Positions 47,171 through 50,993 of a stretch of DNA of 50,993 nt are shown piece by piece. Origin of the DNA: an uncultured bacterium. Its GTDB lineage: Bacteria > Cyanobacteriota > Vampirovibrionia > Gastranaerophilales > Gastranaerophilaceae. How positions within the stretch are numbered: position 1 is the stretch's first letter; every line of letters begins with the position of its first letter. The stretch covers positions 1 to 50,993 of the forward strand of contig CACXDL010000095.1 of NCBI GenBank assembly GCA_902766395.1. Reading direction: 5' to 3'. A program made the translations under genes and the position numbers. The notes under the pieces are model-generated. The model made no database searches. It was not told where the DNA came from and saw nothing but the letters and a program-made list of their open reading frames with translations.

Positions 47171-47614
47171 ATGGAAAAACAAGTTATTACCGTCAATAAA
47201 AAAGCCTTTCATGACTACAATATTTTTGAAAAATATGTAGCAGGTGTTGTGCTGACAGGAACTGAAATAAAATCTGTAAGAAATAATGCTATAAATTTAA
47301 AAGACAGTTTTTGCCGTATAGATGAAGGTGAAATATATATGTATAACTGTCATATATCTCCTTATTCAAATGGTAATATTCACAACCATGAACAAAAGCG
47401 TACGAGAAAACTTTTGTTAACAAAGAAAGAAATTTTTAAAATCACCGGGAAAATAAAAAAAGACGGTTATACCCTTATTCCTTTAGAAGTCTTTATTACA
47501 AAAGGATTTGCTAAAATTGAAATAGGTTTGGCAAAGGGTAAAAAGCTATACGATAAACGCGAAGATATGGCTAAAAAAGACATTCAAAGGAAGATTCAGC
47601 AAGGTAAATACTAA
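47171..47614 (+). CDS. smpB: SsrA-binding protein SmpB
   Basis: A 147-residue tmRNA-binding protein for ribosome rescue: VITVNKKAFHDYNIFEKYVAGVVLTGTEIKSVRNNAINLKDSF, HNHEQKRTRKLLL, GYTLIPLEVFITKGFAKIEIGLAKGKKLYDKR, and a basic tail. Expected length. TGATATAAT, an extended -10, lies 6 nt before the ATG (47159-47164) with no Shine-Dalgarno sequence, so the mRNA is probably leaderless. Convergent and overlapping by 4 bp with the PH-like gene. Confidence 0.97.
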   Translation: MEKQVITVNKKAFHDYNIFEKYVAGVVLTGTEIKSVRNNAINLKDSFCRIDEGEIYMYNCHISPYSNGNIHNHEQKRTRKLLLTKKEIFKITGKIKKDGYTLIPLEVFITKGFAKIEIGLAKGKKLYDKREDMAKKDIQRKIQQGKY

Positions 47615-48622: not shown

Positions 48623-50566
48623 ATGTCTCAACAAATACCCACAATAGGTGGAAAACCATTAAATATTAATCAAATCCAAAATCCTGCAATGCAGGGTCAG
48701 GGTTCTGATGCAGTAAATCAAGCTCAGCAAGCGGCAAACAATTCATATCTTGCAAACAGGGCGAAAGCTTCTCAAGATGCTGATCCTGCAACGACTCTCG
48801 GCCTAACCACCGCAATTGGATATGGTATTGGTCAGGGTATGGATGTGTTTAACAAAAAGTCAGGTGGAGAGTACGAAAAGAGTATTTTCGGACGTTTAGG
48901 CGGTTGGGCTGATGCCTTTTCAAAAAATACAAGAGTTGGAAGAGCTATAGAAAATTCTCTTCAAAAAATTAATGCATATATCACATTAAAATCACGTTCA
49001 AGTAAAATTCTTTATGCATTGAAACATCATGCAACAATGCCGGATTGGAAGATTGTTAAACAAATGGGGTCTGGATTAAAAGGTTTTCTTGGTACTGATA
49101 CGGAAAATGTTTTTGAACATTTTATGAAACCTATTGATGGCAATTTCCAAAAACTTGAGCAGTATGGCATGAGTCAGGAAGAGATAAACAATTTCAGACG
49201 CAGCCTGACCGGAACAAAAGCAGAACAGGTTTTGGAACTTCAAAAGAAAGAATTAGAAAAATTAGGAGCTTCTGCTTCTGAAGTTGCGGGAAAAACTATA
49301 GAAGAATTAAAAGATTTAGCAACTGAACTGAAAGCTAAAAAATTGGGTTTTGCAAATTTAGCCGAATATAATTTTTTAAAAGGTAATTTTGTAGATAATC
49401 CTAATGTTATTAGAGATGTACTTGAAAAAGCAGATAAGAATATAAAAATTTCTGTGTGGCGCGGCGATGGCTCTACGCTATTTGGTAAATTAAAATCGCA
49501 TTTCTTAGGAAGAACCGTTTCATTAAGCGAATTATATAATAAATATAATGTAATATTAGGCAAGGGCAATAAATCATATCTTGGGCGAGCATTACCAAAA
49601 GCATTGGCTTGGATTACAGAAGGCGGCACAAACCGCTTTGCCGGTGGTAAATTAGCACCATTTATGCAGGCATTTTTCTTTGCTGATATGTTGTACCATG
49701 CTGTAAAGGCACCTGTAGGTGAAAAAATTAAGACTTTTGCCGAAAGAGTTGTAAATGATTTCACATACTTTATTGGCGGTATTGCCGGTGTTGTCGGAAT
49801 GCATAAACTTATCGGTTGTTTCAAATATATAGGCAACAATGATGCAGGCAGAGAAGCATATAGAGCAGCTTTAAAAGCTTTTAATGAACAGGTAAAAGCA
49901 AAAGCTTTTGCAAGTAAAGCAGATTACAATGCCGCAGGAAAAGCTGTTGATGCTCTTTTAAATACTGATGGTCTAAAGTGGTATCAAAAAATCTTGCAAA
50001 AAGCTGCTTGTATTATGAATATGGGTAATGAGCATAAATTAGCTTATCGGTCTAATAAATTAATAAATAATAATTTTTTAAGACGTGTTTTAAATACGAA
50101 TATTCTTGGTGTACCTTTGAGATTTGCGTTACCAATGATAATCGTATCTCCATTCCTCGCTAAATTGACAACAAAAGCGGCTCATTTGATTTTTGGCAGG
50201 CCAACTCATTCTGTATTAGATGAAGAAACAGAAGAAGAAACTTCGAAACAAAAAGATGGTATTAAAAAACCTGAAAATCAGTCATCCTCTGTTACTCAAA
50301 CTGCAAAAGCTGATCCTAATAGTTATGCTGATACAAATTTAATAAAACGAAGAGCAAATAAGCAAAATTCCGGTTCTCATGAATCAAATGATGTTACTAA
50401 AACTGAAAAAAATAATGATAAAAATGTAGAGCCCGTAAGGACTTATATTCCATCTCCTGTAGGCATGGTTCAAACTTCTCCTGACAGAACGGCTTATGAT
50501 AATGCTATGTCGAAAGCAGATTCTGCAGAAAAAGAAATAGAGCAGATTTTAGCTAATTACAGATAG
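48623..50566 (+). CDS. Large unknown protein, 647 residues
   Basis: I recognise no family. The first 55 residues are Gln/Asn/Ala-rich and disordered, without a signal peptide. A Gly-rich block (TAIGYGIGQGMDVF) precedes helical, basic segments. Two hydrophobic stretches occur: near residue 390 (YFIGGIAGVVGMHKLIG) and near 490-510 (LRFALPMIIVSPFLAKL). The last ~110 residues are polar and disordered (EEETEEETSKQK, Ser/Asn-rich), ending in a helix. A TAGGGA sequence before the ATG serves as Shine-Dalgarno. Codon use is regular. Possibly an exported or surface-associated protein (inference only). The ncRNA gene follows directly. Confidence 0.8.
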   Translation: MSQQIPTIGGKPLNINQIQNPAMQGQGSDAVNQAQQAANNSYLANRAKASQDADPATTLGLTTAIGYGIGQGMDVFNKKSGGEYEKSIFGRLGGWADAFSKNTRVGRAIENSLQKINAYITLKSRSSKILYALKHHATMPDWKIVKQMGSGLKGFLGTDTENVFEHFMKPIDGNFQKLEQYGMSQEEINNFRRSLTGTKAEQVLELQKKELEKLGASASEVAGKTIEELKDLATELKAKKLGFANLAEYNFLKGNFVDNPNVIRDVLEKADKNIKISVWRGDGSTLFGKLKSHFLGRTVSLSELYNKYNVILGKGNKSYLGRALPKALAWITEGGTNRFAGGKLAPFMQAFFFADMLYHAVKAPVGEKIKTFAERVVNDFTYFIGGIAGVVGMHKLIGCFKYIGNNDAGREAYRAALKAFNEQVKAKAFASKADYNAAGKAVDALLNTDGLKWYQKILQKAACIMNMGNEHKLAYRSNKLINNNFLRRVLNTNILGVPLRFALPMIIVSPFLAKLTTKAAHLIFGRPTHSVLDEETEEETSKQKDGIKKPENQSSSVTQTAKADPNSYADTNLIKRRANKQNSGSHESNDVTKTEKNNDKNVEPVRTYIPSPVGMVQTSPDRTAYDNAMSKADSAEKEIEQILANYR

Positions 50567-50574
50567 TAACACGT

Positions 50575-50603
50575 TTGATAATCTTATAATTATATGTTAT
50601 TAT
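50575..50603 (+). promoter_or_regulatory. Promoter of the structured ncRNA
   Basis: TTGATA (50575-50580), exactly 17 nt, TATTAT (50598-50603). The predicted start near 50610-50611 coincides with the first base of the RNA's closing stem. Confidence 0.65.
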
Positions 50604-50610
50604 CTTGTAA

Positions 50611-50780
50611 GCTCTGTATAGGTGTTAATTTTGTTCCTACATTTATATAAATAGGGAGAGTTAACTCCGTGAGGTTGAAGTATACCCGCCGATTTTATCG
50701 CTAGCGGGAAACGGATTACTCAGGGTTCTCACCCACCTGCGAGCCTAGCAGGTAACAAAATCCGCTTATACAGGGCTTTT
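50611..50780 (+). ncRNA. Structured ncRNA, 6S RNA-like rod with central bubble
   Basis: This ~170-nt non-coding stretch folds into one closed molecule. GCTCTGTATAGGTG (50611-50624) pairs continuously with CGCTTATACAGGGC (50763-50776): 14 pairs, three of them G-U. After a 3x1 internal loop, ATTTTGTT (50628-50635) pairs with AACAAAAT (50754-50761). A side hairpin (ACCTGC/GCAGGT, 50735-50753) lies on the 3' side of a central bubble. A terminal rod is formed by GTGAG/CTCAC, AGTA/TACT and a CCCGC/GCGGG hairpin. It ends in CTTTT. Size, closing stem, 3'-side bubble hairpin and dedicated promoter fit 6S RNA, which inhibits the housekeeping RNA polymerase. Conserved 6S sequence was not checked; another regulatory RNA is possible. 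Confidence 0.55.
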
Positions 50781-50834
50781 AAAAGTTGTGTAACGTTTTG
50801 TAACAACACGCCTTTAAATGTTAAAGTTTTTATT

Positions 50835-50885
50835 AGTGACTGCCGACATGAAAGATATAGGAAACCGAATGAAAGGACAGTCACT
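50835..50885 (+). promoter_or_regulatory. Start-site hairpin enclosing the ribosome binding site
   Basis: AGTGACTG (50835-50842) pairs perfectly with CAGTCACT (50878-50885), and the ATG begins at the next base. The 35-nt loop holds the AAAGGA Shine-Dalgarno sequence. Such a stem next to the start codon could make translation sensitive to a ligand, protein or temperature. Confidence 0.5.
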
Positions 50886-50993
50886 ATGGGAATGAGTGCA
50901 TCTCAGGCAAGATTCTTGAGTTTGACAGCCAGAAAGACAAACGTTGAATATGAAGGACAACAAATTAACCAACAACGTACTGCGCTTTCAAAT
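50886..50993 (+). CDS. SQARFL-type N-terminal protein (partial, runs off the edge)
   Basis: The first 36 residues of a gene cut by the window end: MGMSASQARFLSLTARKTNV followed by EYEGQQINQQRTALSN. It is a helical, heptad-like, Gln/Arg-rich start without a signal peptide. From memory, this N-terminus is recurrent in gut Gastranaerophilales proteins of unknown function, and it recalls N-terminal export/assembly helices of flagellar-type axial proteins. AAAGGA gives a Shine-Dalgarno sequence inside the upstream hairpin loop. Only the start is visible, so length and function are unknown. Confidence 0.75.
   Translation, partial: MGMSASQARFLSLTARKTNVEYEGQQINQQRTALSN

Follow-up and report, generated by a model that had tools for sequence, protein, structure and literature searches.

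A divergent 6S RNA gene in a Gastranaerophilales-type bacterium

An intergenic stretch close to one end of a 50,993-nucleotide piece of bacterial DNA (the window, by which we mean the whole stretch that was analysed) raises the question of which RNA, if any, is made from it. The original prediction had described a discrete, structured, non-coding RNA gene and proposed that it could be either the lineage's 6S RNA or a new RNA class. 6S RNA is widespread among bacteria and occupies their main RNA polymerase. We conclude, with a probability of roughly 0.96, that the locus is a single 6S RNA gene (a homologue of ssrS/ssaA) of a Gastranaerophilales-type bacterium, specifying an RNA of ~170 nt that would mimic an open promoter. 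The evidence for the gene comprises family membership, a covarying structure, a promoter kept in position, a single copy and a primary sigma factor encoded in the same genome.

Family assignment and predicted fold

The gene lies in the intergenic stretch that separates a 647-amino-acid ORF (48623-50566) from the ORF starting at 50887. No ORF of at least 60 amino acids was found in 50567-50886, which agrees with the view that this DNA is not protein coding. When the whole window was scanned with cmscan, RF00013 (6S/SsrS) matched at 50608-50780 on the forward (+) strand, to which all parts of the RNA described below belong. The match scored 47.4 bits, the gathering score being 46.4, spanned the model fully (positions 1-187 of 187) and was the sole Rfam match over gathering score within the window. 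The search of Rfam covariance models that had been advised with the original prediction therefore returned 6S, and a permissive scan found no other Rfam family at the locus down to E = 1. The gene is 173 nt long, with a predicted start at about 50608-50611, and the genome has no second 6S copy. A score just 1 bit over the gathering cut-off is marginal and counts against 6S identity; we therefore carried out independent tests beyond Rfam.

The predicted fold has a minimum free energy of -62.7 kcal/mol, compared with a mean of -41.3 +/- 4.0 for shuffled sequences (z -5.4), and none of the 200 shuffles was as stable as the native sequence. Overall, the RNA is predicted to form a closed rod with a closing stem, an inner helix, a central bubble carrying a hairpin on its 3' side and a long apical arm. 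The closing stem P1 pairs 50609-50624 with 50763-50778, its 3' strand and the following TTTT together occupying 50763-50780. Such a helix had been predicted with 14 pairs; the helix itself is present in the fold, but it has 16. The rest of the predicted architecture was recovered as described, with an inner 8-bp helix, P2 or downstream duplex (50628-50635 with 50754-50761, the latter strand being AACAAAAU and supported by fold and covariation), a preformed hairpin in the 3' central bubble (50735-50753, ACCUGC...GCAGGU, pairing 50735-50740 with 50748-50753) and a terminal rod, here the internal or apical arm at 50654-50734. The 5' central bubble, in the region of CCUACAUUUAUAUAAAUA, covers 50636-50653. 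The 5' strand of P2 would serve as template for a product RNA, the putative start of which is C33 (50640) in the 5' bubble, and the apical arm would mimic an upstream duplex with a -35-like region.

Covariation, promoter and neighbouring genes

The structure was predicted from the window sequence alone and then counted on an alignment of 55 sequences sampled across the genus, family and order, made without reference to structure. Standard pairs were found in 94.6% of cells, as against 82.3% in shuffles, and sliding the partners by 1-3 columns left at most 46% paired. Changes on both sides occurred in 28 of the 54 pairs (21.4 in shuffles), a count that no shuffle and no slid register reached, and in 326 cells (80 in shuffles); relatedness inflates the comparison with shuffles, yet the slid registers keep that relatedness and also fail. 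An RNAalifold consensus yielded the same helices. In the closing stem (helices 1 and 2), 12 of 16 pairs had changed on both sides. P2 (helix 3) was 99.3% paired, with pairs switching from AU to GC and from UA to AU, the apical arm (helices 4-8) was 94-99% paired, and the 3' bubble hairpin (helix 9) was 98.5% paired, with CG/UA/GC switches at one pair. Compensatory changes among relatives, which had been named as a test of the prediction, are thus strongly evident.

The predicted promoter was found at 50575-50603 (+), where a -35 element, TTGATA (50575-50580), is followed by a 17-nt spacer and a -10 element, TATTAT (50598-50603), which was identified by sequence match and is kept in position among relatives. 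A TG one base 5' of the hexamer adds an extended -10. However, three promoters of such consensus score were found in the AT-rich stretch against 3.4 expected, which is chance level. We therefore rejected the consensus-score scan as evidence and used position-specific conservation in its place, relying on a fixed-offset count alone, as an automatic best-hexamer search sometimes chose a wrong TATAAT. A TANNNT hexamer was present 30-33 nt 5' of an invariant TTTTGTTCCTACA core in all 31 genus members (background 7.8%), and TG preceded it in 27 of them (background 0.7%). These results bear on whether an AT-rich sequence might merely fold by chance beside a coincidental promoter. The chance-level consensus score of the promoter, taken alone, would fit such a coincidence, but the fold z-score, covariation above all shuffles and conservation over the order do not; covariation and order-wide conservation refute it, and we regard its probability as negligible.

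At the 3' end, the closing stem is followed by the short T-run of the original prediction, with 4 Ts in the window and at least 5 in most relatives. Because the stem mostly runs into at least five Ts in relatives, it may also act as an intrinsic terminator. The position of the RNA, 106 bp 5' of a same-strand ORF, would also suit a structured leader or attenuator of the gene starting at 50887. However, the 36-aa start of the downstream protein was not found beside the RNA in any other species' locus examined; the upstream protein, by contrast, is present in nearly all genus loci. In addition, a T-run follows the closing stem, and the closed rod shape is kept across the order. We rejected a leader role for the downstream gene because this neighbour is not conserved, and we consider it exceedingly improbable.

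Several other features of the neighbourhood were observed. The 647-aa protein, which had no Pfam match, adjoins the 6S gene in conserved synteny, with 37-52% identity in most genus loci. Downstream, the segment 50836-50993, in which the leader of the next gene and the first part of that gene (MGMSASQARFLSLTARKTNVEYEGQQINQQRTALSN) lie, is repeated in the genome: contig C32 closes with a 98% copy, and C41, C61, C77 and C38 carry weaker paralogues. This repeat is probably an assembly break, since the window's contig and C32 both end inside it. An inverted repeat, AGTGACTG ... CAGTCACT (50836-50886), brackets the leader immediately 5' of the ATG at 50887, and in the C32 copy one of its arms is changed. 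SmpB, the partner protein of tmRNA, is encoded at 47171-47614, about 3 kb upstream of the 6S gene; the Rfam scan found no tmRNA in the window.

Distribution in the order and continuity with photosynthetic cyanobacteria

Across 146 genomes of the order, RF00013 matched at E <= 0.001 in 121 and over the gathering score in 31. A model built from this order only, without photosynthetic cyanobacteria (R1), matched in 141 of the 146, with one match each, and gave the gene in the window 182.7 bits. The cut-off of RF00013 thus misses 6S RNA in about 80% of the sampled order genomes and, given the 141 genomes found by the local model against 31, absences reported by Rfam scans in this group would be mostly false. 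In a reciprocal test on 20 photosynthetic cyanobacterial loci with high RF00013 scores, R1 recovered 14 of the 20 6S loci at E < 0.01, at the expected place and on the expected strand. Therefore, the RNAs of photosynthetic cyanobacteria and of this order form one family.

A different class of polymerase-binding RNA with a 6S-like shape, such as Ms1, which binds core polymerase and not holoenzyme, could also resemble this locus. Ms1 is structurally related to 6S RNA (PMC9130861), and the RF00013 score is marginal. Nevertheless, the locus matches 6S in sequence and structure over the cut-off, other Rfam families are absent down to E = 1, and cyanobacterial 6S loci are reciprocally detected; we judge an Ms1-like class to be very unlikely. 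Together, the full-length RF00013 match, the covariation, the presence in 141 of 146 order genomes and the reciprocal cyanobacterial recovery support the proposal of the lineage's 6S RNA. The alternative of a new RNA class is not supported: the RNA represents a divergent clade within an already known family. The 6S gene is real and well conserved, an ordinary though divergent member of that family.

Longer 6S RNAs, of about 184-197 nt, were seen in three genera of the same family (g33, g38 and g40; for example G119, G125 and G128). With R1 they reach only 76-121 bits, RF00013 gives them no score, and they represent a more diverged branch.

Public records containing the genus core include 'Candidatus Gastranaerophilales', 'Candidatus Melainabacteria', a 'Cyanobacteria bacterium' and many other bacterial assemblies, some of them labelled rumen and gut. 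Judging from these relatives, the host belongs to a Gastranaerophilales-type (Melainabacteria), non-photosynthetic gut lineage. In the open-access literature searched, we found no paper that connects 6S RNA to Melainabacteria or Gastranaerophilales; our results extend the reach of this annotated global regulator of transcription to gut bacteria that are related to cyanobacteria and do not photosynthesise.

Proposed mechanism and comparison with known systems

6S RNAs mimic an open promoter and bind the housekeeping holoenzyme; synthesis of a short product RNA by the polymerase, with the 5' bubble as template, opens P2 and releases them (PMC8876501). By analogy, we infer polymerase binding, product-RNA synthesis, release and a growth-phase role for the RNA described here. 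Its fold would be a double-stranded rod, open in the middle, that imitates melted promoter DNA, and when nutrients are short the RNA polymerase holoenzyme with the primary sigma factor would bind the RNA in place of real promoters. Once NTPs return, polymerase would use the 5' bubble strand as template for a short product RNA, predicted to be about 5'-GUAGGAACAAAAUU (or AUGUAGGAAC) and to start opposite C33 (50640), the synthesis of which would open P2 and free the polymerase. The genome encodes an RpoD-type sigma factor, which passes the TIGR02393 cut-off at 391.5 bits.

C33 and A34 are invariant in 55 of 55 sequences, and the 5' bubble/P2 strand AAUUUUGUUCCUAC(33) lines up by sequence with the template of B. 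subtilis 6S-1. The published B. subtilis 6S-1 pRNA is GUUCGGUCAAAACUA (PMC12005410), and an ungapped comparison with the predicted product 5'-GUAGGAACAAAAUUA, in the same register, gives 10 identities over 15 positions. This invariance and identity are only suggestive of product-RNA templating. In constrained folds with the product RNA bound, P2 was lost and the 3' bubble hairpin kept, and no clear central-bubble-collapse helix was seen. With its nearly invariant AU-rich P2/product-RNA template and preformed 3' bubble hairpin, the RNA might tentatively be assigned to a lineage-specific 6S subfamily of non-photosynthetic Cyanobacteriota, although we consider this rather unlikely; if true, the weak A/U-rich product-RNA hybrid could mean that release kinetics differ from those in E. 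coli and B. subtilis.

Among known systems, Ms1 of actinobacteria shares a structural relationship with 6S RNA and binds RNA polymerase, but as core enzyme free of primary sigma (PMC9130861, PMC4191392). Among the Rfam families in the library used, the locus matches only RF00013 with E up to 1. With the RF00013 RNAs, such as E. coli SsrS and B. subtilis 6S-1, it has in common the closing stem, P2, central bubble, apical arm and full model span, as well as the organisation, here predicted from sequence, as a discrete, single-copy unit of ~170 nt behind a sigma-70-type promoter. It differs from them in its somewhat smaller length (173 nt, the model having 187 positions) and in scoring near the cut-off. 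The 3' bubble hairpin, preformed in the predicted free RNA, is shared with B. subtilis 6S-1 but not with E. coli (PMC8876501). In Synechocystis sp. PCC 6803, 6S RNA acts in recovery from nitrogen starvation, and sequestration of SigA polymerase was judged not to be its main mechanism (PMC5721685); therefore, the physiological role here may differ from that in E. coli. Cyanobacterial 6S RNAs (ssaA; PMC5721685) come from the same GTDB phylum and their loci are recovered by R1, whereas their RF00013 scores reach up to 117 bits in photosynthetic members, compared with about 28-62 in this order.
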